From the NCBI GenBank assembly GCA_019635275.1, contig JAHBZV010000027.1:1-42130 (forward strand): a DNA stretch of 42,130 nucleotides. Reading direction: 5' to 3'. Positions within the stretch are counted from its first letter, which is position 1. Each line of letters starts with the position of its first letter. A program made the position numbers and the translations under genes. The notes beneath the pieces were generated by a model. The model worked only from the letters and a program-made list of their open reading frames with translations. It was not told the origin of the DNA and searched no databases. This document shows positions 8,809 to 31,348 of this stretch, piece by piece. The DNA comes from Burkholderiaceae bacterium. Lineage in GTDB: Bacteria > Pseudomonadota > Gammaproteobacteria > Burkholderiales > Burkholderiaceae_E.

Positions 8809-9749
8809 GGCAGCTCCGGCTGGCCCTCGTCCTTCTTCTTCGTCGGCTTGACGAGGTCTTCGCGCTTGACGCCCAGCCACATGGCGATCGCTGCTGCGAC
8901 GAACACGGACGAGTAGATGCCGAACAGGATGCCGATCGTCAGCGCGACCGCGAAGTAGTGCAGCGTCGGCCCACCGAAGATCAGCATCGACAGGACCATG
9001 ATCTGCGTCGAGCCGTGCGTGATGATCGTGCGCGAGATCGTGCTGGTGATCGCCTTGTCGATGATCTCCCGCGTGCCGGCCTTGCGGATCTTGCGGAAGT
9101 ATTCGCGGATCCGGTCGAAGATGACCACCGACTCGTTGACCGAGTAGCCGAGCACCGCGAGCACCGCCGCGAGCACCGACAGCGAGAACTCCCACTGGAA
9201 CGCAGCGAAGAAGCCGAGGATGATCACCACGTCGTGAAGGTTGGCGATGATCGCCGCGACCGCGAATTTCCACTCGAAGCGGATCGCCAGGTAGACGATG
9301 ATGCCGACGATCACGAACAGCAGCGCCATCGCGCCGTCCGTGAACAGCTCCTTGCCGACCTGCGGGCCGACGAACTCGACGCGCCTGAGTTGCGCGCTCG
9401 CGTCGGCCGCCTTCAGCGCCGCCATCACCTGCTCGCTCTGGGCGGCCGAGGTCTGGCCGGCCGCCTCGCGCAGCGGCAAGCGGATCATCACGTCGTGCGA
9501 GGTGCCGAAGTTCTGCACCTGCACGTCGGCGTAGCCGAGCGAGCCGACCGTGGTGCGGATCTTCTCGAGGTCGGCGCTCTGCGCGTAGTTGACCTCCATC
9601 ACCGTGCCGCCGGTGAATTCGATCGACAGGTGCAGCCCGCGCGTGGCGAGGAAGAACACCGCCAGCAGGAAGGTGATGACCGAGATCGCGTTCAGCACCA
9701 GCGCGTGGCGCATGAACGGGATGTCGCGCTTGATCCGGAAGAATTCCAT
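8805..9749 (-). CDS. secF: Protein translocase subunit SecF
   Basis: A 314-residue RND-type membrane protein that works with SecD and YajC to drive late steps of Sec export with the proton gradient. It has a first transmembrane helix near residue 20, a periplasmic domain with EFTGGTVMEV and five C-terminal helices. The signature stretches GYSVNESVVIFDRIRE and TISRTIITHG are present. It ends in a lysine-rich cytoplasmic tail. It is separated from secD by 24 nt and its stop overlaps the cytochrome b561 start. Confidence 0.97.
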   Translation of the reverse strand: MEFFRIKRDIPFMRHALVLNAISVITFLLAVFFLATRGLHLSIEFTGGTVMEVNYAQSADLEKIRTTVGSLGYADVQVQNFGTSHDVMIRLPLREAAGQTSAAQSEQVMAALKAADASAQLRRVEFVGPQVGKELFTDGAMALLFVIVGIIVYLAIRFEWKFAVAAIIANLHDVVIILGFFAAFQWEFSLSVLAAVLAVLGYSVNESVVIFDRIREYFRKIRKAGTREIIDKAITSTISRTIITHGSTQIMVLSMLIFGGPTLHYFAVALTIGILFGIYSSVFVAAAIAMWLGVKREDLVKPTKKKDEGQPELP

Positions 9750-9773
9750 CGTTCCTGTCCGTCTGCGTGCGCG

Positions 9774-11636
9774 TCAGGCCGCGGTGTCGGGCTTCCAGAT
9801 CTGCCCGATCGAGATCTTCGTGAGCTTGCGCTGGCGCCCGTACCAGAGGTTCACCAGGCCGCGCGAGAAGAACACTGCCGAGAACATCGACGTGAGCAGC
9901 CCCAGCACGTGGACGACGGCGAACCCGCGCACCGGCCCCGAGCCGAACACCAGCAGCGCCACGCCGGCGATCAGCGAGGTGACGTTGGAGTCGAGGATCG
10001 TGGCCCAGGCGCGTTCGTAGCCCGCGGCGATCGCCGCCTGCGGCGTGGCGCCGTTGCGCAACTCTTCGCGGATGCGCTCGTTGATCAGCACGTTGGCGTC
10101 GATCGCCATGCCGAGCGTGAGCGCGATGGCCGCGATGCCGGGCAGCGTCAGCGTGGCCTGCAGCAGCGACAGCAGCGCGATGAGGAGCAGCACGTTGACC
10201 GCCAGCGAGATCGACGAGACCACGCCGAACAGCATGTAGTACAGGCTCATGAAGATCGCGATCGCGATGAAGCCCCACAGTGTCGAGTGGAAGCCCTTGG
10301 CGATGTTCTCGGCGCCCAGGCTCGGGCCGATGGTGCGTTCCTCGATGATCTCCATCGGCGCGGCGAGCGACCCGGCGCGCAGCAGCAGCGCGGTGTCGCT
10401 GGCTTCCTGCGTGGTCATGCGGCCGGAAATCTGCACGCGCCCGCCGGCGATCTCGGAGCGGATCACCGGCGCAGTGACCACCTCGCCCTTGCCGCGCTCG
10501 ATCAGCAGGATCGCCATGCGCCGCCCGATGTTCTCGCGCGTCACGTCGCGGAAGATCCGTGCGCCCTTGGCGTCGAGGTTCAGGTGAACGGCAGGCTCGT
10601 GGGTCTGCGGGTCGAAACCGGGCTGCGCGTCGTTGAGGTTCTCGCCGGTGAGGATGACCTGCTTGCGCACGAGAATCGGCTGGCCGTCGCGCTCGGTGTA
10701 GCGCTCGCAGTTGAACGGCACCGTGCCGGCTGCCAGCGCGGCGACTTCGTCGGGCGATTCGCAGACCATGCGCACCTCGAGGGTGGCGGTGCGGCCCAGG
10801 ATGTCCTTGGCCTTGGCGGTGTCCTGGACGCCCGGCAACTGCACGACGACGCGGTCGAGGCCTTGCTGCTGGACGACCGGCTCGGCGACGCCGAGCTCGT
10901 TGATGCGGTTGCTCAGCGTCGTGATGTTCTGGCGGATCGCGTTTTCCTGGATGCGTTGCGCAGCCTGCGGGCGGAAGGTGGCGACGAGCTTCAGGTCGGC
11001 CCCCTCGGTCGCTTCGACCAGCGCGAGGTCGGGCACCGTGTCGGCGATGGCCGCGCGGGCCCGCTCGCGCGTCTCGGGGTCGCGGAAGCGGATCTCGATC
11101 GCGTCGCCCGCGCGGACGATCCCCGCGTGGCGCAGGTTGCGGTCGCGCATCAGCGTGCGCAGGTCGCCGGCGGTGCCGTCGATCCGCTTCGACAGCGCCT
11201 GCTTCATGTCGACCTGGAGCAGGAAGTGCACGCCGCCGCGCAGGTCCAGGCCGAGGTACATCGGCAGCGCGCGCAGGCTGGTGAGCCAGTTGGGCGAATT
11301 CGACAGCAGGTTCAGCGCGACGATCCAGCTCGGGTCGGCGGGATCGGGGTTCAGCGCCTTGGCCAGCGCATCCTTCGCGCGCAGTTGCGTGTCGGTGTCG
11401 CGGAAGCGCGCCTTGACCGAGTTGCCGTCGAAGAACAGGCCGGTGTTCGCGATGCCGGCCCCGTTGAGCACCGATTCGACGCGCCCGAGCATCGCGGGCT
11501 CGACTTTCAGCGTCGCCTTGCCGCTCGACACCTGGACGGCAGGGGCCTCGCCGAAGAAGTTCGGCAGCGTGTACAGCAGGCCAAAGACCAGCGCTATCGC
11601 GATGATCGCGTACTTCCAGACCGGATAACGATTCAT
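9774..11636 (-). CDS. secD: Protein translocase subunit SecD
   Basis: The large partner of SecF, 620 residues. It starts MNRYPVWKYAIIAIALVFG (first membrane helix). A long periplasmic region (about 30-450) includes LGLDLRGGVHFLLQVD, the conserved D/E motif of the family. Five C-terminal helices follow with ALTLGMAIDANVLINERIREE. The length is close to the E. coli enzyme. It lies between yajC (47-nt gap) and secF. Confidence 0.98.
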   Translation of the reverse strand: MNRYPVWKYAIIAIALVFGLLYTLPNFFGEAPAVQVSSGKATLKVEPAMLGRVESVLNGAGIANTGLFFDGNSVKARFRDTDTQLRAKDALAKALNPDPADPSWIVALNLLSNSPNWLTSLRALPMYLGLDLRGGVHFLLQVDMKQALSKRIDGTAGDLRTLMRDRNLRHAGIVRAGDAIEIRFRDPETRERARAAIADTVPDLALVEATEGADLKLVATFRPQAAQRIQENAIRQNITTLSNRINELGVAEPVVQQQGLDRVVVQLPGVQDTAKAKDILGRTATLEVRMVCESPDEVAALAAGTVPFNCERYTERDGQPILVRKQVILTGENLNDAQPGFDPQTHEPAVHLNLDAKGARIFRDVTRENIGRRMAILLIERGKGEVVTAPVIRSEIAGGRVQISGRMTTQEASDTALLLRAGSLAAPMEIIEERTIGPSLGAENIAKGFHSTLWGFIAIAIFMSLYYMLFGVVSSISLAVNVLLLIALLSLLQATLTLPGIAAIALTLGMAIDANVLINERIREELRNGATPQAAIAAGYERAWATILDSNVTSLIAGVALLVFGSGPVRGFAVVHVLGLLTSMFSAVFFSRGLVNLWYGRQRKLTKISIGQIWKPDTAA

Positions 11637-11683
11637 TCGGCTGCCTGGTTGGGGCGCCCTCGGGCCCGCACGGATTGCCCTGC

Positions 11684-12031
11684 TCAGATCGCCTTGATCG
11701 TGCCGTTCGGCAGCAGCGTCTGCACCGCGGCCTTCTGGAACGTCATCTCGATCGCCGAATCGCCGCCTTTCGAGTCAGGGGCGCGCGCGACCTCGATCGT
11801 GACGTAGCTCTCGGCGACCTTCGTGATCCGCCCGACCAGGCCGCCCGAGGTGACGACCTCGTCGCCCTTCTTCAGCGCCTCGAGCATCGTCTTGTGCTCC
11901 TTGGCGCGCTTCATCTGCGGGCGGATCATCAGGAAGTACAGCACGACGAACATCAGGATGATCGGCAGGAAGCCGATGATCTGCTGCTCGGTGCCGCCCG
12001 CGGCCTGGGCGTATGCGCTGGAAATGAACAC
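11684..12031 (-). CDS. yajC: Preprotein translocase subunit YajC
   Basis: A 115-residue single-span membrane protein of the SecDF-YajC complex. It starts at GTG 12031, preceded by a GGGAG-type ribosome site. Residues 1-10 (FISSAYAQA) lead into one helix (IIGFLPIILMFVVLYFLMIRPQ), the basic KRAKEHK, and the conserved GDEVVTSGGLVGRI cytoplasmic motif. First gene of the yajC-secD-secF transcript, with its own promoter just upstream. Confidence 0.95.
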   Translation of the reverse strand: MFISSAYAQAAGGTEQQIIGFLPIILMFVVLYFLMIRPQMKRAKEHKTMLEALKKGDEVVTSGGLVGRITKVAESYVTIEVARAPDSKGGDSAIEMTFQKAAVQTLLPNGTIKAI

Positions 12032-12058
12032 GGAGGGGTCTCCCTTGAACGACCGGGG

Positions 12059-12067
12059 ATTATAGCA
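12059..12067 (-). promoter_or_regulatory. Extended -10 promoter of yajC-secDF
   Basis: On the minus strand this reads TGCTATAAT, a perfect -10 hexamer with the TGn extension, 27 nt before the yajC GTG. It shows that the sec genes need not depend on tgt transcription. It is the strongest sigma70-type hexamer noted in the window. Confidence 0.65.
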
Positions 12068-12185
12068 ACCGTGACTTCGCTCACGTCGGCAGGCTTGCCG
12101 GCGCCGCCCTCGTGCGCTGGCCGCGGGCCCGCGCCGCGAGGTCGGGCGCCTGCAAGTGCCTGATATGGCAGGCAGGTGCGCGCCC

Positions 12186-12202
12186 TGGCACGCTCGTTGC
12201 AT
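12186..12202 (+). promoter_or_regulatory. Sigma54 (-24/-12) promoter, plus strand, no gene downstream
   Basis: TGGCACG-N4-TTGCAT matches the published sigma54 core TGGCACG-N4-TTGCW at every fixed base. It points toward the intrinsic terminator at 12231-12258, not toward a coding gene; tgt beyond it is on the opposite strand. With GC of the -12 element at 12199-12200, the start site should be about 12212. A TGCC-N6-GGCA inverted repeat lies just upstream (about 12160-12174). An activator site further upstream was not identified. Confidence 0.55.
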
Positions 12203-12211
12203 ACATCGTCG

Positions 12212-12258
12212 CGATAGCAGCCAGGGATCAGGGCCCGCGTTCGCGGGCCCCTTTTTTT
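12212..12258 (+). ncRNA. Candidate sigma54-dependent small RNA (about 47 nt)
   Basis: Inferred transcript between the sigma54 promoter and the T-run of the terminator. It would have a short single-stranded 5' part containing CCAGGGATCAGGG (purine-rich, with one CsrA/RsmA-like AGGGA) and a 3' terminator hairpin, the usual layout of Hfq-type sRNAs, although it is very short. It has no open frame. The boundaries are predictions. A longer plus-strand RNA starting nearer yajC and ending at the same terminator is the alternative. Confidence 0.35.
12231..12258 (+). terminator. Rho-independent terminator, plus strand
   Basis: Perfect stem GGGCCCGC / GCGGGCCC with a GTTC loop (12231-12250), followed by CTTTTTTT. 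It is the only run of five or more T that I noticed in this GC-rich window. The orientation is plus, so it cannot end tgt or yajC, which are both on the minus strand. It implies a plus-strand transcript arising in the yajC-tgt gap. Confidence 0.82.
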
Positions 12259-12291
12259 GTCCGGCCGGCAGCGGCGCCCCGGCGCCGGACC

Positions 12292-14485
<2,194 letters not shown>

Positions 14486-14493
14486 GGCGCGTC

Positions 14494-14499
14494 ATTCTA
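14494..14499 (-). promoter_or_regulatory. Possible -10 element of queA
   Basis: On the minus strand this reads TAGAAT, 8 nt before the queA ATG. If used, the queA mRNA would have almost no leader, which fits the absence of a ribosome site. No -35 was recognised. Confidence 0.3.
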
Positions 14500-14568
14500 G
14501 GACGTGCAAAGATGCACCGTTCGCGGCCGACGGCGGCCGCGGGTGGCGGCCGATGCGGAGGAGCCCCC

Positions 14569-15783
14569 ATGCTGTTCTCGATCCAGGGCATCGTCGACTC
14601 GCTCGGGGCGCGACCCGGCATCCCGTTCGAGGTCGCACTGCCGGATGGCTCGCGCCTGCGCACCGGCGACGGCGAGCCGCGCTTCACGATCGCGTTTCAC
14701 TCCGAGGCGGCGCTGCTCAGGGGGTTCACGCGCGGGCACATCGGCCTGCTCGAGGCCTTCTTCGACGGCGAGATCGACGTCGACGGCGACCTGCACGCGC
14801 TGTTCGCGGCCGGCATGATGAGCGACATCGGCCAGCAGGTGCGCACGGTGGCGAAGGTCGAGAACGACCTGCTCGAGTGGCGCCGGTCGAACCGCACGCC
14901 GGCGCAGGCGAAGGCCAACGCACGTGCCCACTACGGTCTCGGCGAGCCGTTCTACCGGCTCTGGCTCGACGATCCGTTGAAGATGTACACCTGCGGCTAC
15001 TGGCCCGAGGGCACGACGTCGCTCGAACAGGCCCAGCGCAACAAGATCGACCACGTCTGCCGCAAGATCCGGTTGTCGCGCGGCGAGCGCTTCGTCGACA
15101 TCGGCTGCGGGTTCGGCGGGTTCATGTTCCGGGCGCTCGAGACCACCGGCGCCACCGGTGTCGGCGTCAACACCACGACCGAGCAGGTGGACTGGCTGCG
15201 GGGCGAGATCGCGCGGCGTGGCCTGCAGGCGCAGCTGTCGGTGCGCGAGGCCGACTTTCGCGACGTCGACGGTCAGTACGATAAGGTGGTGTCGATCGGC
15301 GTACTCGAGCACGCCGGCCGGGACCAGCTTGCCGACGTGGTGCGCGCGCACGCCGACTTCCTCAAGCCCGGCGGCCTGGGCATGCTGCACTTCATCGGCC
15401 ACGTCGGGCGCTACGACACCGAGCTGTTCATCCGCAAGCACGTGTTCCCGGGCGGGTGGATCCCGAGCCTTGCCGACGTGATCGTCGAGATGGAGCGCTG
15501 CGGGCTCGAGGTGGTCGACGTCGAGAACCTGAGGCGCCACTATGCGCCCACGCTCGACGCCTGGGCCGAGCGCTTCGAGCGCCAGTGGGAGGCGATCCGC
15601 GCGCTCGACCCCGGGCGCTTCGACGAGCGCTTCCGCCGGATCTGGCTCACCTACCTGATCGGTTGCGCGGAGATGTTCCGCTCGCCGGCCGGCTATACGC
15701 ACCTGTTCCAGATCGTCTTCAGCAAGGGCAACGTCACCGACGCCAGCTATCCGATGGGCCGTGGGTTCCTCCATGCAGGCTGA
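14569..15783 (+). CDS. CFA-synthase-family fatty acid methyltransferase
   Basis: A 404-residue SAM-dependent methyltransferase of the cyclopropane-fatty-acid synthase family, acting on double bonds of phospholipid acyl chains. The SAM motif is VDIGCGFGGF near 176-185. Residues equivalent to the E. coli Cfa bicarbonate/active site are kept: Cys142 (YTCGYW), Glu247 (GVLEHAG), His274 (LHFIG) and Tyr325 (RRHYAPTL). The ATG at 14569 follows GCGGAGGAG. The stop overlaps a DHCR24-like flavoprotein gene. That pairing is the TmsB/TmsA (BfaB/BfaA) arrangement described for 10-methyl fatty acids in actinobacteria, so the product may be a methylene or methyl branch and not a cyclopropane. The last point is inference. 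Confidence 0.88.
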   Translation: MLFSIQGIVDSLGARPGIPFEVALPDGSRLRTGDGEPRFTIAFHSEAALLRGFTRGHIGLLEAFFDGEIDVDGDLHALFAAGMMSDIGQQVRTVAKVENDLLEWRRSNRTPAQAKANARAHYGLGEPFYRLWLDDPLKMYTCGYWPEGTTSLEQAQRNKIDHVCRKIRLSRGERFVDIGCGFGGFMFRALETTGATGVGVNTTTEQVDWLRGEIARRGLQAQLSVREADFRDVDGQYDKVVSIGVLEHAGRDQLADVVRAHADFLKPGGLGMLHFIGHVGRYDTELFIRKHVFPGGWIPSLADVIVEMERCGLEVVDVENLRRHYAPTLDAWAERFERQWEAIRALDPGRFDERFRRIWLTYLIGCAEMFRSPAGYTHLFQIVFSKGNVTDASYPMGRGFLHAG

Positions 15784-17158
15784 GCCGCGGCCGGTGCTCG
15801 AAGACGACGCAACGCGCCACGCGGCGGCGCAGCACGCGGCCCGCCGTGCGCAACTCGTCGAGGCGCTGCGATCGGGGGGCAACGCTCCGCTCGGGCTCGC
15901 GCGCAGCACGTCCAACCTGTTCCGCGATCGCGCCGAGAGCCCCAAGCACCGGCTCGACCTGCGCGAGTTCCGGCACGTGCTCGGCATCGATACCGCCCGC
16001 GGCTGGGTCGACGTCGAGGGCTCGACGCGCTACGAGGACCTCGTCGACGCCACGCTGTCGCATGGCGTGATGCCCGCGGTCGTGCCGCAGCTCAGGACGA
16101 TCACCGTCGGCGGCGCGGCGGCGGGGGTCGGCATCGAGGCGACCTCGTTCCGCCAGGGCCTGGTGCACGACACGCTGCTGGAACTCGACGTGCTGCTGCC
16201 CGACGGCCGCATCGTGAGTTGCGCGCCGGACAACGAGCACCGCGACCTGTTCTTCGGATTCCCCAATTCGTACGGCACGCTGGGCTATGCGTTGCGTCTG
16301 CGATTGCGCTCGATGCCGGTGCGGCGCGCGGTGCGCGTCGAGCATCGCCGGCACGGCGACCCGGACGCGTTCTTCGCCGACCTCGCGCAGCAGTGCGCGG
16401 GCCCCGCCGACTTCGTCGACGGCGTCGTGTTCGGTCCCGGCGAGCAGGTGCTCAGCGTCGCGCGATTCGTCGACGACGCGCCCTGGCTCAGCGACTACAC
16501 GTTCGAGAAGATCTACTATCGCTCGCTGCGCAGCCGCGAGATCGACTACCTGAGCGCGCGAGATTACCTGTGGCGCTGGGACACCGACTGGTTCTGGTGC
16601 TCGAAGAACGTCTACGCGCAGAATCCGCTGGTGCGTCGACTGCTCGGGCGCAAGCGCCTGAATTCGCGCTTCTACACGCGCGTCATGCGCTGGAACGCGC
16701 GCTGGGGGCTCACGCGGCGACTCGCGCGGCTGCGCGGGCGCTTCACCGAGTCGGTGATCCAGGACGTCGACATCCCGCTGGCGCGGGCCGCGGAGTTCCT
16801 CGCGTTCCTTCTGCGCGAGATCGGCATCCTGCCGGCCTGGGTCTGCCCGATCCGGCCCGCCGACGCGTCGGCCCGGTTCACGCTCTACCCGCTGGAACCG
16901 GGCGTGCCCTACGTGAACTTCGGCTTCTGGGACGTGGTCGAAAGCGCCGGCCAGCACGGGCCCGGGCACTTCAACCGGCTCGTCGAGCGCGAGGTGATGC
17001 GCCTGGGCGGCATCAAGTCGCTGTACTCGGACAGTTTCTTCACGCGCGAGGAATTCGCGCGCGCCTACCGGATGGACGAATACGCCGCGCTGAAGGCGAA
17101 GTACGACCCGCAGGGGCGCGCGCTGGGGCTCTACGAAAAATGCGTGCTGCGCGGCTGA
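15773..17158 (+). CDS. DHCR24/TmsA-like FAD-dependent oxidoreductase
   Basis: A 461-residue FAD-binding (PCMH-type) protein. The flavin domain (about 40-185) contains GSTRYEDLVDATLSHG, TVGGAAAGVGIEATS and SYGTLGYALRLRL, a pattern close to sterol delta24-reductase (DHCR24) and to TmsA/BfaA, which reduce a side-chain double bond with NADPH. It probably reduces the methylene group made by the upstream methyltransferase to a methyl branch; oxidation of a methylated chain is the alternative. The ATG at 15773 lies inside the methyltransferase gene; a GTG at 15761 in frame is possible. The 3' end overlaps the PAP2 gene by 19 nt. No signal peptide, so it is cytoplasmic, perhaps membrane-associated. 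Confidence 0.82.
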   Translation: MQAEPRPVLEDDATRHAAAQHAARRAQLVEALRSGGNAPLGLARSTSNLFRDRAESPKHRLDLREFRHVLGIDTARGWVDVEGSTRYEDLVDATLSHGVMPAVVPQLRTITVGGAAAGVGIEATSFRQGLVHDTLLELDVLLPDGRIVSCAPDNEHRDLFFGFPNSYGTLGYALRLRLRSMPVRRAVRVEHRRHGDPDAFFADLAQQCAGPADFVDGVVFGPGEQVLSVARFVDDAPWLSDYTFEKIYYRSLRSREIDYLSARDYLWRWDTDWFWCSKNVYAQNPLVRRLLGRKRLNSRFYTRVMRWNARWGLTRRLARLRGRFTESVIQDVDIPLARAAEFLAFLLREIGILPAWVCPIRPADASARFTLYPLEPGVPYVNFGFWDVVESAGQHGPGHFNRLVEREVMRLGGIKSLYSDSFFTREEFARAYRMDEYAALKAKYDPQGRALGLYEKCVLRG

Positions 17159-24239: not shown

Positions 24240-24563
24240 TCACGTCTTGCAGGCGACTGCGGCCGGCTCGAGGCAGGGTTCGCCCTGGCAGCAATGGGCC
24301 GTCAGGTAGCCGAGCAGATCGTTCATCTGCACGAATTCGGCGCGGTAGATCAGGTGCCGGCCGCTGCGCTCCTGGCTGACCAGGCCGGCCTGCATCAGTT
24401 CCTTCAAGTGGAACGACAATGTCGCGGCCGGCAACCCCAGCAATTCGGCGATCGCGCCCGGGGTCAGCCCCTGCGGGCCGGCCACGACCAGTGCGCGGAA
24501 TACCTGCAGCCGGGATGCCTGGGCGAGGGCGGCGAGCGCCTTGACTGCGTGGGTGTCGTCCAT
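24240..24563 (-). CDS. arsR: Arsenical-resistance repressor, ArsR family
   Basis: A 107-residue winged-helix repressor of the ars operon. The recognition helix region is LGLPAATLSFHLKELMQAGLV (about 42-62) and the wing is RSGRHLIYRA. Unlike plasmid R773 ArsR (CVCDLC in helix 4), the cysteines are at the C-terminus: Cys91, Cys92, Cys97 and Cys105. This resembles the As(III) site of the Acidithiobacillus ferrooxidans repressor. The ATG at 24563 was chosen over an upstream in-frame codon because it gives the normal family N-terminus. Its promoter and operator should lie in the AT-rich 24575-24625 stretch, but no clean palindrome was found. Confidence 0.93.
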   Translation of the reverse strand: MDDTHAVKALAALAQASRLQVFRALVVAGPQGLTPGAIAELLGLPAATLSFHLKELMQAGLVSQERSGRHLIYRAEFVQMNDLLGYLTAHCCQGEPCLEPAAVACKT

Positions 24564-24660
24564 CTGCAGGATCCTGAAGGAGAGATATTTCAATGTTATT
24601 ACAACTATGGAAACAATTGCCGAAAGCCCCGTCCGAGCCGGGCCGCCGGCGGACGCCGCG

Positions 24661-24694
24661 TCGTCACGAAATCGTCATCGAGCCGTCGTAACGT
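24661..24694 (+). promoter_or_regulatory. Pho box and -10 of the pst operon
   Basis: Direct repeats TCGTCAC and TCGTCAT separated by GAAA (24661-24678), then exactly 10 bp, then TAACGT (24689-24694) as -10. This is the geometry of PhoB-activated promoters, in which the Pho box replaces the -35. It predicts induction of pstSCAB-phoU under phosphate limitation. The phoB promoter at 31355-31388 has the same layout. Confidence 0.75.
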
Positions 24695-24729
24695 GTGCAG
24701 GTCTCCTCAGCCAGACAGGAACCCACGGA

Positions 24730-25773
24730 ATGAAACTCACGACTCGTCTTCTCGCCTCCGGTGCCCTCGCGCTCGGCCTCGCCTCGGCCCAGGCCGCAGA
24801 GATCACCGGCGCCGGGGCGACCTTCCCGGCCCCGGTCTACGCCAAGTGGGCGGAAGCCTACAAGGCGGCCACCGGCCACAGCGTCAACTACCAGGCGATC
24901 GGCTCGGGCGGCGGCATCAAGCAGATCAATGCCAAGACCGTCGACTTCGGTGCCTCCGACGACCCGCTGAAAGGCCCGGACCTCGACAAGAACGGCCTGC
25001 TGCAGTTCCCGGCCGTGATCGGCGGCATCGTCGCGGTGGTCAACCTGCCGGGTGTGCAGCCGGGCCAGATGAAACTGACCGGCGAAGTGCTCGCCGACAT
25101 CTACCGCGGCGCGGTCACGAAGTGGGACGACGCGAAGATCGTCGCGCTGAATCCGGGGGTCAAATTGCCGTCTTCCGCGATCACGCTGGTCTACCGCTCG
25201 GATTCGTCGGGCACGACGGCCGGCTTCACCGACTACCTGGCGCAGGTCTCCGGGGCGTTCAAGTCGGAGATCGGCGCCGGCAAGACGGTCGACTGGAAGG
25301 CCGGCGTCGGCGGCAAGGGGAACGCGGGTGTCGCGGCGAACGTCACGAAGATCGCCGGTGCGATCGGCTACGTCGAATACGCGTACGCCAAGCAGAACAG
25401 CATGACGCACACGGCGATGGTCAATCGCGACGGCAAGACGGTGCAGCCGGACGACAAGACCTTCGCGTCGGCCGCGGCCAATGCGAACTGGAATGGCGCC
25501 CCCGGCTTCGGCGTCAACCTGAACAACCAGCCCGGCGACCAGGCCTGGCCGATGACCTCGGCGAGCTTCATCCTGATGCACAAGACCGCCGAGAAGCCGG
25601 CGCGTTCGCTCGAAGCGCTGAAGTTCTTCCAGTGGGCGCTGAACAAGGGCCAGAACCTGGCGCTGGAGCTAGACTACGTCCCGTTGCCGGCAGCGGTCGT
25701 CAAGCAGATCGAGGCGTCGTGGAAGGACATCCGCGACGCGTCGGGCAAGCCGGTGGCGACCCTGGCTCACTGA
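24730..25773 (+). CDS. pstS: Phosphate-binding protein PstS
   Basis: The periplasmic receptor of the high-affinity phosphate ABC transporter, 347 residues. The signal peptide is cleaved after ASAQA. Phosphate contacts are in [30 protein letters not shown] and [15 protein letters not shown] (about residue 157), all diagnostic. The start at 24730 gives a normal signal peptide and has an AGGA ribosome site; longer in-frame extensions run through the Pho box and are not coding. First gene of pstSCAB-phoU, followed by a strong hairpin. Confidence 0.97.
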
Positions 25774-25794
25774 GCGGCGCCTGCGATCCGGAGC

Positions 25795-25817
25795 GGCGGG
25801 GCGCCTGGCGCCCCGCC
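25795..25817 (+). terminator. Intra-operon hairpin between pstS and pstC (attenuator or mRNA stabiliser)
   Basis: A perfect 10-bp stem (GGCGGGGCGC / GCGCCCCGCC) with a CTG loop, followed by the weak T-tract GTCTCGTTTA. A structure in this place after a binding-protein gene typically allows partial termination or protects the 3' end, so that pstS exceeds the permease genes. The poor T-run suggests incomplete termination. Confidence 0.6.
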
Positions 25818-25843
25818 GTCTCGTTTACGGAATCGCAGTCCTG

Positions 25844-26869
25844 ATGAAGCCACCGATGGGTGCAACGGTCGAAACAGCCGACGCGGTGTCGTCGGGCGGC
25901 ACGGCGGCGTCGTCCGGCGGCTCGGTCGCGCGGGCGCAGCAGGCCCTCGCGACGCGGGTGCGCCGCTTCGCCGCGCAGGACCGCGTCTTCTTTGCGGTGA
26001 CCTTCTCGTTCGCGGCGCTCGTCCTCGCGGGCCTGATGGGAATCCTGGTCGCGCTGGTGATCCAGGCGTGGCCGGCTCTGCGCGAGTTCGGGCCGGCCTT
26101 CTTCTACGGCACCCGGTGGAGCCCGACCGACGACGTGTTCGGCGCCGTGATCGCGGTCTACGGCACGCTGACCACGTCCGCGATCGCGCTGCTGATCGGC
26201 GTGCCGATCAGCTTCGGCATCGCGGTGTTCCTCACCGAAATGTGCCCGACCTGGCTCAAGCGGCCGCTCGGTACCGCGATCGAACTGCTCGCGGGCATCC
26301 CGTCGATCATCTACGGGTTCTGGGGATTGTTCGTCCTGGCCCCCTTGCTGCAGGACCACGTTCAGCCGCTGCTGGCCGGCACGGGGCTGCCGTGGTTCGC
26401 CGGGCCGCCGCTGGGCATCGGGATCTTCACCGCGGGCGTCGTGCTGGCGCTGATGGTGATCCCGTTCATTGCGTCGGTGATGCGCGACGTGTTCGAGACC
26501 GTGCCGCCGGTGCTGAAGGAGTCGGCCTACGGGCTGGGCTGCACGACCTGGGAAGTGGTGCGCCACATCGTGCTGCCGTACACGCGCGTGGGCGTGATCG
26601 GCGGCGTGATGCTCGGCCTGGGCCGCGCGCTCGGGGAGACGATGGCGGTCACCTTCGTGATCGGCAACGCCAACCGGCTGGCCGGGAGCCTGTTCGCGCC
26701 GGGCAACTCGATCGCTTCGACGCTGGCCAACGAGTTCGCCGAGGCCGATCCGGTCCTGCACATTCCTGCGCTGTTCGCGCTCGGCCTGCTGCTGTTCGTG
26801 ATCACCTTCGTCGTGCTGGCGATCGCGAAGTGGCTCACGCAGCGCGGCGTGGCGCGCACCGGCGCCTGA
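25844..26869 (+). CDS. pstC: Phosphate ABC transporter permease PstC
   Basis: A 341-residue inner-membrane permease. A variable, Ser/Gly/Ala-rich cytoplasmic N-terminus (about 1-45) precedes the first helix ([22 protein letters not shown]). The PstC signature [24 protein letters not shown] follows, then the EAA-loop region [22 protein letters not shown] and [18 protein letters not shown]. It forms the membrane channel with PstA, and the gene ends 7 nt before pstA. Confidence 0.96.
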
Positions 26870-28545: not shown

Positions 28546-29244
28546 ATGCTGCAGGAACACACCCACCGCCAGTTCGACACCGACATCGACGTGCTGCGCA
28601 GCGCTGTGACGATGATGGGCGGCCTGGTCGAGCGTCAGCTCGTGCGCGCGATCGACGCGGTGCGGCTGCGCGACCTCGACCTCGTCGCGCAGGTGCTCGC
28701 CGACGAGCAGAAGGTCAACCAGTTGCAGGTCGAGTCCGACCTGCGCTGCAACCAGACGATCGCCCGGCGCCAGCCGATCGCGATCGACCTGCGCGAGATC
28801 ATCGCGGTCATCCACACGATCAACGACCTCGAGCGCATCGGCGACGAGGCGAAGAAGATCGCGCTGAAGGCCCGCGTGCTGCACCTGGCCGAGTCGCCGA
28901 TCGCGATGGACCGCATCGAGCAGATGTCGTCGCTGGTCCGCGGCATGCTCGATTCGGCGATCGACGCATTCGTGCGCCACGACACGACGGTCGCCGGCGT
29001 GCTCGGCCAGCGCGACGACGAGGTCGATGCGCTGCGCGACGCGCTGATCGAGGAGCTGGTGGCGACGATGTCGTCGCACCCGGAGACGGTGTCACCGTGC
29101 CTGGCGCTGATCTTCGTCGTGCAGTCGATCGAGCGCGCGGGCGATCACGCGAAGAACATCGCCGAGTACGTGGTCAACGTGGTCGAGGGAATCGACCTGC
29201 GTCACGCGAGCCCGGCCGACAGCGGCGGCCCGCCCGCGTCCTGA
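28546..29244 (+). CDS. phoU: Phosphate signalling protein PhoU
   Basis: A 232-residue, all-helical protein made of two similar three-helix bundles. Its metal-binding motifs are NDLERIGDEAKKIA (about residue 91) and SIERAGDHAKNIAEY (about residue 191). With PstSCAB it keeps PhoR inactive when phosphate is plentiful. It is the last gene of the pst operon. Its 3' end overlaps the 3' end of phoR on the other strand by 43 nt; the overlapped part codes for the non-conserved tail ASPADSGGPPAS. Confidence 0.97.
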   Translation: MLQEHTHRQFDTDIDVLRSAVTMMGGLVERQLVRAIDAVRLRDLDLVAQVLADEQKVNQLQVESDLRCNQTIARRQPIAIDLREIIAVIHTINDLERIGDEAKKIALKARVLHLAESPIAMDRIEQMSSLVRGMLDSAIDAFVRHDTTVAGVLGQRDDEVDALRDALIEELVATMSSHPETVSPCLALIFVVQSIERAGDHAKNIAEYVVNVVEGIDLRHASPADSGGPPAS

Positions 29245-30632
29245 GCGGCGTTGCCGCCTGCGCCGGCCGGCGGCGCCCCAACCGTGCCTGAGCGGGCCGC
29301 GGCGTCCGCGGAGGCCTGCGTGTCGGCGCCCGCGGCGCGCGGCGACGCCGGGTCGGCGAGCAGGCGCGCGGCCGGCAGGCACAGCGTGAAGGTGCTGCCG
29401 CGGCCCGGCGCGCTCTCGAACTCCAGCCGGCCCTGGTGCCGGTGCATGATCCGCTTGACGATCGCCAGGCCGAGCCCGGTGCCGCCGCTGGCGCGCGAGC
29501 GGCCGCGGTCGACGCGGTAGAAGCGCTCGGTGAGCCTCGACAGGTGCTCGGGCGCAATGCCGATGCCGGTGTCTCGTACCGAGATGCGCCCCTCGTTGTC
29601 CTGCACCCGCCACGTCATCGAGATCCGGCCGCCGTCGGGCGTGTAGCGGATCGCGTTGGTCAGCAGGTTGCGTATCGCGCTCTCGAGTTCGCCCGGCGCG
29701 GCCATCACGCGGCGCGGGCCGTCGAGTGCGAGGCCGAACTGGTGGCGCTCGCGCGACAGCGCGCGCGCCTCGTCGAGCAGCGCCTCGAGCAGCCGCTGCA
29801 GGTCGACCTGCTCCTCCTCCAGCTCGTCGGCGCCGCTCTCGAGCGACGACAGCATCAGCAGGTCGTCGACCAGCCTCTGCATGGTCTGGCTCTGCTTGAG
29901 GATCGAGCCGAGGTACTCGCGGCGCGCGGCCTCGTCGAGCTCGAGCGTGAGCAGCGTCTCGGCAAAGCCGGCGATGACCGTGATCGGCGTGCGGATCTCG
30001 TGCGAGACGTTGGCCACGAAGTCGCTGCGCATCGCGTCGAGCTTGGCCTGGTTGGTCACGTCGCGGGTGATCAGCAGCTTCTGGTCGCCTTGCGCGCGGT
30101 GCAGCCGGAGCTCGTGGGTGCGGCCCGGATGGCGCGGCAGCTGCACGCGCATCGTGCTGCCCGACTCGTTGGCTTCGAGGAAGCGTGCGAACTCGGGCTG
30201 GCGGATGAAGTGGTGGATCGGCCGGCGGGTGCCGAAGATGCCGTGCAGGCTCTCGGCCGCCTCGTTGGCCCACAGCACGTGGTCGTAGCGGTCGAGGACG
30301 ACCAGGCCGTCGGGCAGCCGGTCGACCGCCGCGTGGATGCGCTCGAGCTCCGAGCCGAGCTCGTTGCGCGTGTCGGTCTCCTGGCGCACGAAGCGCGCCA
30401 GCCGCGTCACGATCGGCCGCCACGGACCGATGCCGGCCGGCAGCGCGCGATTGCGCGGCAGCGACGACCAGTGGTGCAGCCGAACCAGGTACAACGACTG
30501 CACGACCGCGTAGGCGACGAAGACGGTGGCGAACCACCAGATCGCGAACGTCTGCGAGACGTACAGGTCGAGCCCGGCGCCGATGGCGACGACCAGGGCG
30601 ATGGCGGCGAGGCTGCGCAGGAACAGGCTCAA
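29202..30632 (-). CDS. phoR: Phosphate-regulon sensor histidine kinase PhoR
   Basis: A 476-residue sensor kinase. Two N-terminal helices (about 5-48) lack a large periplasmic domain, as in PhoR. A PAS domain (about 100-195, LPDGLVVLDRYDHVLWANEAA) leads to the HisKA box VSHEIRTPITVIAGF with phosphoacceptor His211 and a HATPase domain (N-box LLTNAIRYTP, G-boxes DTGIGIAPEH and GGTGLGLAIVK). The start is a TTG at 30632; no ATG or GTG lies between phoB and it. A long Ala/Gly/Pro-rich tail (about 410-476) runs antisense into phoU. It follows phoB by 29 nt. Confidence 0.94.
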   Translation of the reverse strand: MSLFLRSLAAIALVVAIGAGLDLYVSQTFAIWWFATVFVAYAVVQSLYLVRLHHWSSLPRNRALPAGIGPWRPIVTRLARFVRQETDTRNELGSELERIHAAVDRLPDGLVVLDRYDHVLWANEAAESLHGIFGTRRPIHHFIRQPEFARFLEANESGSTMRVQLPRHPGRTHELRLHRAQGDQKLLITRDVTNQAKLDAMRSDFVANVSHEIRTPITVIAGFAETLLTLELDEAARREYLGSILKQSQTMQRLVDDLLMLSSLESGADELEEEQVDLQRLLEALLDEARALSRERHQFGLALDGPRRVMAAPGELESAIRNLLTNAIRYTPDGGRISMTWRVQDNEGRISVRDTGIGIAPEHLSRLTERFYRVDRGRSRASGGTGLGLAIVKRIMHRHQGRLEFESAPGRGSTFTLCLPAARLLADPASPRAAGADTQASADAAARSGTVGAPPAGAGGNAAQDAGGPPLSAGLA

Positions 30633-30661
30633 GGGGACTGTCTCGACGGCGTTTGCGGGAC

Positions 30662-31348
30662 TCAGCGGGGCAGGAAGCGGTACCCCCCACCGCGCACGGT
30701 CTCGATCAGCCGGTCGTGGCCCCCCGGCGACAGCGCCAGACGAAGGCGACGGATGTGGACGTCGACCGTGCGCTCCTCAATATACACGTGATCCCCCCAG
30801 ACATTGTCGAGCAGCCGCGTGCGCGAGAGCACGCGATCGGGGTTCCTCATGAAGAAATGCAGCAGCCGGAACTCGGTGGGGCTCAACTCGAGCGTGCGCT
30901 CGCCGGCGTAGACGCGGAAGGTCGCGGGCTCGAGCCGCAGGCCGGCGATCTCGATCGGGTCCTCCGAGGCCTCGGGCGAGGCGCGGCGCAGCAGCGCGCG
31001 CACGCGCGCCAGCAATTCGCGCGGCGAGAACGGCTTGGTGACGTAGTCGTCGGCGCCCACGTCGAAGCCCTGCAGCTTGTCGCCCTCCTGCGCGCGGGCG
31101 GTCAGCATGACGATCGGCAGCTTCGCGGTACGCGTCTCGGCGCGCAGCTTCCTGGCGAACTCGATGCCCGACTGGCCGGGGAGCATCCAGTCGAGCAGCA
31201 CCAGGTCGGGCAGCCCGGCGTCGAGCTGGATGCGGGCGGCTTCGGCGGTCTCGGCTTCGCTCACCGTGTAGCCGGCGTGGCGGAGGTTCACCGCGATCAG
31301 CTCGCGGATGGCCGGCTCGTCCTCGACGATCAGGATCTTGGCGTTCAC
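30662..31348 (-). CDS. phoB: Phosphate-regulon response regulator PhoB
   Basis: A 228-residue OmpR-family regulator. The receiver domain has the phosphoacceptor Asp53 (LVLLDWMLPGQSG), the switch residues TA (MLTARAQ) and Lys in DDYVTKPFSPREL. The winged-helix DNA-binding domain (about 130-228) contains LSPTEFRLLHFF and ERTVDVHIRRLR. The start is a GTG at 31348; an in-frame TAA at 31358-31360 rules out any earlier start. There is no ribosome site, and its promoter -10 is only 6 nt away, so the mRNA is probably leaderless. Confidence 0.97.
   Translation of the reverse strand: MNAKILIVEDEPAIRELIAVNLRHAGYTVSEAETAEAARIQLDAGLPDLVLLDWMLPGQSGIEFARKLRAETRTAKLPIVMLTARAQEGDKLQGFDVGADDYVTKPFSPRELLARVRALLRRASPEASEDPIEIAGLRLEPATFRVYAGERTLELSPTEFRLLHFFMRNPDRVLSRTRLLDNVWGDHVYIEERTVDVHIRRLRLALSPGGHDRLIETVRGGGYRFLPR

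Follow-up and report, generated by a model that had tools for sequence, protein, structure and literature searches.

A candidate sigma54-dependent small RNA gene in the yajC-tgt gap of a betaproteobacterium related to Lautropia

Results

A likely sigma54-driven small RNA gene between yajC and tgt

We identified a candidate small RNA (sRNA) gene in the gap between yajC and tgt, two housekeeping genes, in the genome of a betaproteobacterium related to Lautropia. The DNA analyzed, hereafter the window, is a stretch of 42,130 nucleotides with 70% G+C, in which the minus-strand gene order around the gap is queA-tgt-yajC-secD-secF. Judging from the sequence and its comparison with relatives, we consider it reasonably probable that the gap carries a small intergenic RNA gene that depends on sigma54, IHF and an activator, and whose product pairs with target mRNAs through a short tail. 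That the RNA is driven by sigma54 is likely, and a lineage-specific sRNA with this dependence, acting through its tail, is the most likely reading of the module as a whole. The features of the gap and its borders are as follows.

11687-12034, minus strand: yajC (PF02699)
12059-12067, minus strand: extended -10 type promoter for yajC, TGCTATAAT, read from the sequence
12071-12084, strand not given: possible activator site, a GTGA-N6-TCAC dyad (by eye, weak)
12153-12165, minus strand: IHF-like site CAAGTGCCTGATA (plus-strand letters), a match to the IHF consensus
12186-12200, plus strand: sigma54 -24/-12 promoter core TGGCAC-N5-TTGC, 10 of 10 fixed bases
12212-12258, plus strand: predicted small RNA of about 47 nt, for which the -12 position suggests a start at 12212 or 12213
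12218-12229, plus strand: conserved 12-nt tail CAGCCAGGGATC just before the stem, identical at 12 of 12 positions in three genomes
12231-12258, plus strand: intrinsic terminator with a perfect G+C stem and a T-run
from 12292, minus strand: tgt (PF01702)

The plus strand reads TGGCACG CTCG TTGCAT at 12186-12202, with a spacing of ten bases from GG to GC. An earlier note on this DNA had claimed that every fixed base of the sigma54 -24/-12 core is matched, and this is indeed so; the exact match that it had put at 11 bases comprises ten. Its expectation that chance would yield such a match well under once per window also agrees with our estimate, as a Markov-1 null predicts 0.033 exact TGGCAC-N5-TTGC sites per strand in 42 kb. 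When up to one mismatch is allowed, sites are no more frequent than chance predicts, both in the window (three found, 2.95 expected) and genome-wide (33 + 19, compared with 38 + 38 in the reversed control), and the weight therefore lies in the exact match and its context. The host's own genome contains five exact TGGCAC-N5-TTGCW sites: three precede an apparent start codon by 76-97 bases, one seemingly lies within a coding frame (frames judged by eye), and the remaining one is the yajC-tgt site. The combination of an exact core with a perfect-stem terminator at most 100 nt downstream is expected about 3e-5 to 3e-4 times per window, by arithmetic from the individual rates. The sigma54 gene rpoN (PF04552) was detected in 18/18 genus genomes, scoring 212.4 bits in the own genome. 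Two or more sigma54 matches were found in nine of these 18 genomes.

The gene calls place both yajC and tgt on the minus strand and the promoter and terminator on the plus strand, as the earlier note had it. The predicted start is set about twelve bases downstream of the -12 C, and a direct reading of 12212-12256 found no ATG, GTG or TTG start. Downstream, beyond a stretch that lacks a coding frame, the reported perfect GC stem with seven T is present at 12231-12258: GGGCCCGCG (12231-12239) pairs with CGCGGGCCC (12242-12250), followed by C12251 and seven T at 12252-12258. Perfect-stem terminators (at least 7) number two on the plus strand of the window and none on the minus strand, with 0.22 expected per strand; by a looser definition, two were found in 9000-16000, where 2.0 are expected. 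Of 200 shuffles of 12212-12261, 197 fold less well than the segment itself (z -2.85), an effect due mostly to the terminator stem, and part of the tail is predicted to pair weakly with the U-tract. The site thus combines the sequence features of an intrinsically terminated sRNA gene, namely a stand-alone promoter, a noncoding body, and a G+C stem with a U-run.

Conservation of the module within the genus

We searched for yajC in 61 genomes and found it in 58. Thirty loci were fetched, among them 16 from the 18 genus genomes, and 400 bases of each of these 16 loci were scanned for the module. The IHF-like element, the promoter, and the 12-nt tail with the terminator co-occur in three of the 16, those of the own genome (G000), Lautropia sp. 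SCN 69-89 (G014) and Burkholderiales bacterium 70-64 (G002). Adjacency of yajC and tgt was seen at 11 genus loci, comprising these three whole-module carriers, one relic and seven loci without the module.

The earlier note had proposed aligning the yajC-tgt gap of related genomes, and had named loss of the -24 GG and -12 GC in relatives that keep the terminator as evidence against its reading. In the alignment, promoter and terminator are kept together in all three terminator-bearing genus genomes, and the opposite of such a loss is seen, with the GG and the GC retained in 3/3. The 47-nt body of the note is wrong in detail and not conserved as a unit: it measures about 47 nt in two carriers and about 114 in G002, where about 65 nt extra lie between promoter and tail. 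Similarly, the stretch AGGGATCAGGG that the note had singled out reads AGGGATCGGGG in G002. The tail is identical in the three carriers though the preceding G002 sequence does not align, and the stem pairs are preserved across all three. The conserved part of the predicted RNA is therefore the 12-nt tail plus the terminator, and the -24/-12 bases are also shared by the three genomes.

The core scores 10, 10 and 9 of 10 in the carriers, the G002 core being TGGCATGCCGCTTGC. For a quantitative comparison, we divided 12086-12291 into elements (IHF-like dyad, promoter, tail, and stem) and the rest, with element borders drawn after viewing the alignment. So delimited, 71/71 element positions are unchanged in G014, including 16/16 of the promoter at 12186-12201, compared with 109/135 of the rest (Fisher p about 9e-6). 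For G002, 57/71 element positions and 82/135 of the rest are kept (p about 0.005); this difference is carried by the tail and stem (31/34), and the promoter (11/16) and IHF-like dyad (15/21) are not clearly above background. Covariation says little here, because there are only three sequences and two of them are close; yajC is 98% identical between two of the three carriers.

The yajC-tgt gap of G006 (L003) contains the promoter with 2/15 changes, the tail and terminator are gone, and the IHF-like element is not recognizable. We regard this locus as an apparent relic of the sRNA gene. The seven module-free genus gaps, of 58 to 158 bases, show no visible trace of it. Since seven of the 11 genus genomes with adjacent yajC and tgt lack the module, it is dispensable. 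In G017 (L007), where tgt is not adjacent, a 9/10 sigma54-like site, GGGCACGCGGTTTGC, lies 58 bases upstream of yajC, but the IHF-like element, the tail and a run of five T are all absent from the gap, and we did not count this genome as a carrier. The site, which could be another remnant or a chance occurrence, differs from the window promoter at 4/15 letters, as many as the G002 promoter does. A tree of tgt and yajC, with 2/12 inner branches well supported, is too unresolved to place G002 relative to the other carriers.

An IHF-like site and the upstream region

The sequence CAAGTGCCTGATA is the reverse complement of the IHF consensus WATCARNNNNTTR and lies within an imperfect dyad at 12152-12179. 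Its start is 33 bases upstream of the -24 element, in a position where IHF sites are frequent at sigma54 promoters. It is the only match to the consensus in the 42-kb window; 0.07 are expected and 7/100 shuffles have one, a figure that flatters the site because the motif was chosen after the element had been seen to be conserved. The site is a consensus match in the own genome and in G014; in G002, the first 11 bases are identical, yet the site is not a consensus match. A site for IHF or another bending protein between activator site and promoter is frequent at sigma54 promoters, though not universal. The IHF-like site, which the earlier note had missed, adds support to its sigma54 reading.

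Dyads are present upstream of the promoter, none of them assignable to an activator. One, GTGA-N6-TCAC, lies ~135 bases upstream of the predicted RNA start and reads, by eye, GTGACTTCGCTCAC in the own genome, GTGACTTTGCTCAC in G014 and, imperfectly, GTGAAAACGTGCAC in G002. It is a possible activator site and could equally belong to yajC.

Searches for further copies and the case for a fortuitous promoter

No further copy of the module was found in the 18 genus and 74 family genomes, the 399 order genomes or a GTDB-wide pattern scan. The genus and family genomes were searched with a 20-nt tail-plus-stem pattern allowing up to two mismatches. Beyond the three carriers, this gave 16 matches, of which none has a sigma54 site of at least 9/10 within 200 bases upstream and one (L047) has a five-T run within 40 bases downstream. 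Scanning GTDB with an exact pattern, a scan outside which the own genome may fall, returned five matches: G014, G002 and three others with no sigma54 site of at least 8/10 within 200 bases. BLAST of the longer G002 form against the 74 family genomes recovered G014 (2e-9) and G000 (2e-7) and then nothing below 3e-4, with matches of some kind at E <= 0.1 in 51/74 genomes.

In the order genomes, a covariance model built on the last 47 nt gave 76.5 bits for the window RNA and no more than 35.1 for any other match; G014 and G002 are absent from its matches, presumably lying outside the 399-genome sample. The next-best matches are terminators without a sigma54 site, and the stem type is ordinary in the order. 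This bears on the alternative that the sigma54 match is fortuitous and that the terminator keeps stray plus-strand transcripts from extending, in antisense, into tgt and queA, the region being conserved for that purpose or for yajC regulation. Stems of this kind with T-runs are common terminators in the order: the model finds a match at E <= 0.01 in 102/399 genomes, and the 29 other matches that were assigned loci all lack a sigma54 site of at least 9/10 in the 200 bases upstream. In addition, near-matches to the core occur at the chance rate noted above, and the G002 promoter is no closer to that of the window than the stray G017 site is. What speaks against coincidence is that an exact core and the window's only IHF-consensus site stand in fitting order and spacing and are both unchanged in G014, that the -24 GG and -12 GC persist in the three genomes with the terminator, and that in G006, where the terminator was lost, the promoter shows 2/15 changes and the IHF-like element is not recognizable. 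On balance, we hold a fortuitous promoter to be unlikely, if a chance worth reckoning with.

Antisense control of yajC

We regard as distinctly improbable an alternative in which the sigma54-controlled RNA acts in cis, as an antisense to a tgt-yajC-secD-secF read-through mRNA, uncoupling tgt from yajC by pairing or by polymerase collision. The geometry would suit such a role, the candidate RNA being convergent with tgt and wholly within the tgt-yajC gap, where our scan found no minus-strand terminator. However, yajC need not rely on read-through: it probably has its own promoter inside the gap, since the ATTATA of the apparent extended -10 promoter is kept in most of the relatives' gaps printed. 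Furthermore, an antisense RNA could act whatever its sequence, whereas here the tail stays the same across three genomes and the body does not.

PrsR, PEP-CTERM genes and other readings of the promoter

It would be surprising if the candidate RNA belonged to the regulon through which PrsK/PrsR and sigma54 control PEP-CTERM proteins and exopolysaccharide. The own genome does have PrsR (726.5 bits; 33 matches to the PrsR model in all, lone receiver domains among them) as well as apparent PEP-CTERM genes preceded by sigma54-like promoters, some of them accompanied by IHF-consensus sites, and an 11-mer, CAAGTGCCTGA, occurs four times in the genome: in the yajC-tgt gap, before the sigma54 site of a flippase gene, and twice in apparent coding frames. 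However, this shared 11-mer is better read as an IHF-type site. We rejected PrsR as an unlikely activator because TTTACA and TTACA (short words, not Haft's full motif) are absent within 120 bases upstream of the yajC-tgt promoter and because G014, which is 95% complete and has the RNA gene, shows no PrsR above the cut-off (best 391.7 versus 502.6 bits). Both G000 and G002 have it over the cut-off. Across the genus, PrsR (TIGR02915 over cut-off) is found in 11/18 genomes.

Haft 2006 (PMC1569441) describes PEP-CTERM upstream regions in which a sigma54 -24/-12 element is combined with motif 1, containing TTTACA and located on average 62.8 bases upstream. The yajC-tgt site resembles the regions described there in combining -24/-12 with an upstream element, and differs in that motif 1 is missing and no protein follows.

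We compared six of the genome's sigma54-like promoters that precede apparent PEP-CTERM or exopolysaccharide genes. Three of them (L066, L079, L108) have an IHF-consensus site beginning 19-42 bases upstream, and L080, L084 and L105 lack one; the 9/10 sites L113 and L120, seemingly inside reading frames, were left out of this comparison. The other exact sigma54 sites, L062 and L064, have no IHF-consensus site within 120 bases. Among 19 PEP-CTERM loci examined, the PEP motif was not found in three (L112, L114, L118), and most of the others have no 9/10 site. Sigma54-like promoters precede apparent PEP-CTERM genes at L066, L079, L084, L105 and L108, with TTTACA (L066, L084, L105) or TTACA (L079) 57-90 bases upstream, which fits the Haft 2006 motif. 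At L080 (G000:C75 near 61086-61167), a polysaccharide flippase gene (PF13440) is preceded, at a distance of 98 bases, by a sigma54 site with the complete ten-base core and a CAAGTGCCTGATC element, and the TTTACA word is absent.

Hardly credible, finally, is that another promoter gives rise to a longer RNA whose CCCTGGC (12183-12189) and GCCAGGG (12220-12226) pair, making the sigma54-like bases part of a stem: this 7-bp inverted repeat is perfect in G000 and, by eye, G002, but CGCTGGC in G014 breaks one of the seven pairs, uncompensated, and a scan of 9000-16000 found no sigma70-type promoter (0.2 expected), upstream of the site or elsewhere.

Proposed mechanism and candidate targets

For the sigma54-dependent sRNA that we favor, the arrangement of elements suggests the following course of events. 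Sigma54 RNA polymerase would wait at 12186-12200, with the DNA bent by IHF at 12153-12165, and a particular signal would lead an enhancer-binding activator at a more distant upstream site to open the promoter. The product would be a short RNA consisting of the tail and the terminator hairpin with its U-tail, a form that would suit Hfq. Outside the hairpin, conservation is confined to the tail, CAGCCAGGGAUC, which would then pair with target mRNAs. That it is kept in three sequences while the preceding body varies suggests that the tail is the working part, pairing in trans. A more specific proposal, which we advance tentatively, is a minimal sigma54/IHF sRNA family in one Burkholderiaceae genus, built of two modules, with a 12-nt pairing tail on a terminator hairpin and a free length between promoter and tail, which would evolve separately.

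We searched the three carriers for the tail complement GATCCCTGGCTG with up to one mismatch and obtained 20, 29 and 35 matches, self included, compared with 5, 4 and 5 for a reversed control; the excess may stem from codon use, because the sites viewed appear for the most part to be coding. Among 27 inspected of the 81 off-locus tail-complementary sites, we found no convincing target. Two of the 27 sites, each from G014, are no more than 40 bases away from a start codon that has a ribosome-binding-like stretch, but they too make weak candidates.

If transcribed, the RNA would be among the shortest intrinsically terminated sRNAs and a natural test of the minimal RNA for Hfq-type regulation. Its patchy presence beside the same neighbors (three carriers, one relic and seven loci without it, of 11) would trace the gain, length change and loss of an sRNA.

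Comparison with known systems

To our knowledge, few sigma54-controlled sRNAs are known in betaproteobacteria. NrsZ and CrcZ of Pseudomonas are sigma54-dependent sRNAs under NtrC and CbrB, respectively. The candidate shares with them its predicted sigma54 dependence; unlike it, they are gammaproteobacterial, longer, and have another mode of action. In promoter plan, the closest known system is the enterobacterial sRNA GlmY, at which IHF assists, and whose RNA is far longer and has other partners. The likeness lies in a sigma54 promoter before an sRNA gene, with help from IHF predicted and an upstream activator site possible in the yajC-tgt gap, and the differences in genomic location and in the far shorter predicted RNA of this gap. 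GlmY is described as having a sigma54 promoter and upstream activator sites, with QseF/GlrR as the activator (PMC6075780).

Among short betaproteobacterial sRNAs with an intrinsic terminator, PMC10117139 and PMC11722255 describe NcS25 of Burkholderia, with no sigma54 motif and beside a porin gene, and S17 of Bordetella, with a sigma-A promoter beside coq7. Both are linked to sigma54 through a target or neighbor. Going by these descriptions, the candidate differs from them in promoter and location. Neither a sigma54-dependent Burkholderiales sRNA nor one at yajC-tgt appeared among the matches listed from the open-access literature.

No Rfam family reached its gathering score at the yajC-tgt site. 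The top plus-strand resemblance is to MmgR/suhB (RF00519) of alphaproteobacteria, which likewise has a short tail, a GGGCC stem and a U-run. Membership was rejected, at 15.8 bits compared with a gathering score of 41, and the 5' part of the aligned segment falls inside the promoter.

Another perfect-stem terminator in the window

An 11-bp perfect-stem terminator lies on the plus strand of the window at 25794-25818, flanked by a phosphate-binding-type gene (PBP_like_2) at 24541-25773 and, at 25844-26869, a gene for a transport permease. It may act as an attenuator within a pst-like operon. On the strand opposite to this terminator, 29202-31348 encodes a pair consisting of a histidine kinase and a response regulator.
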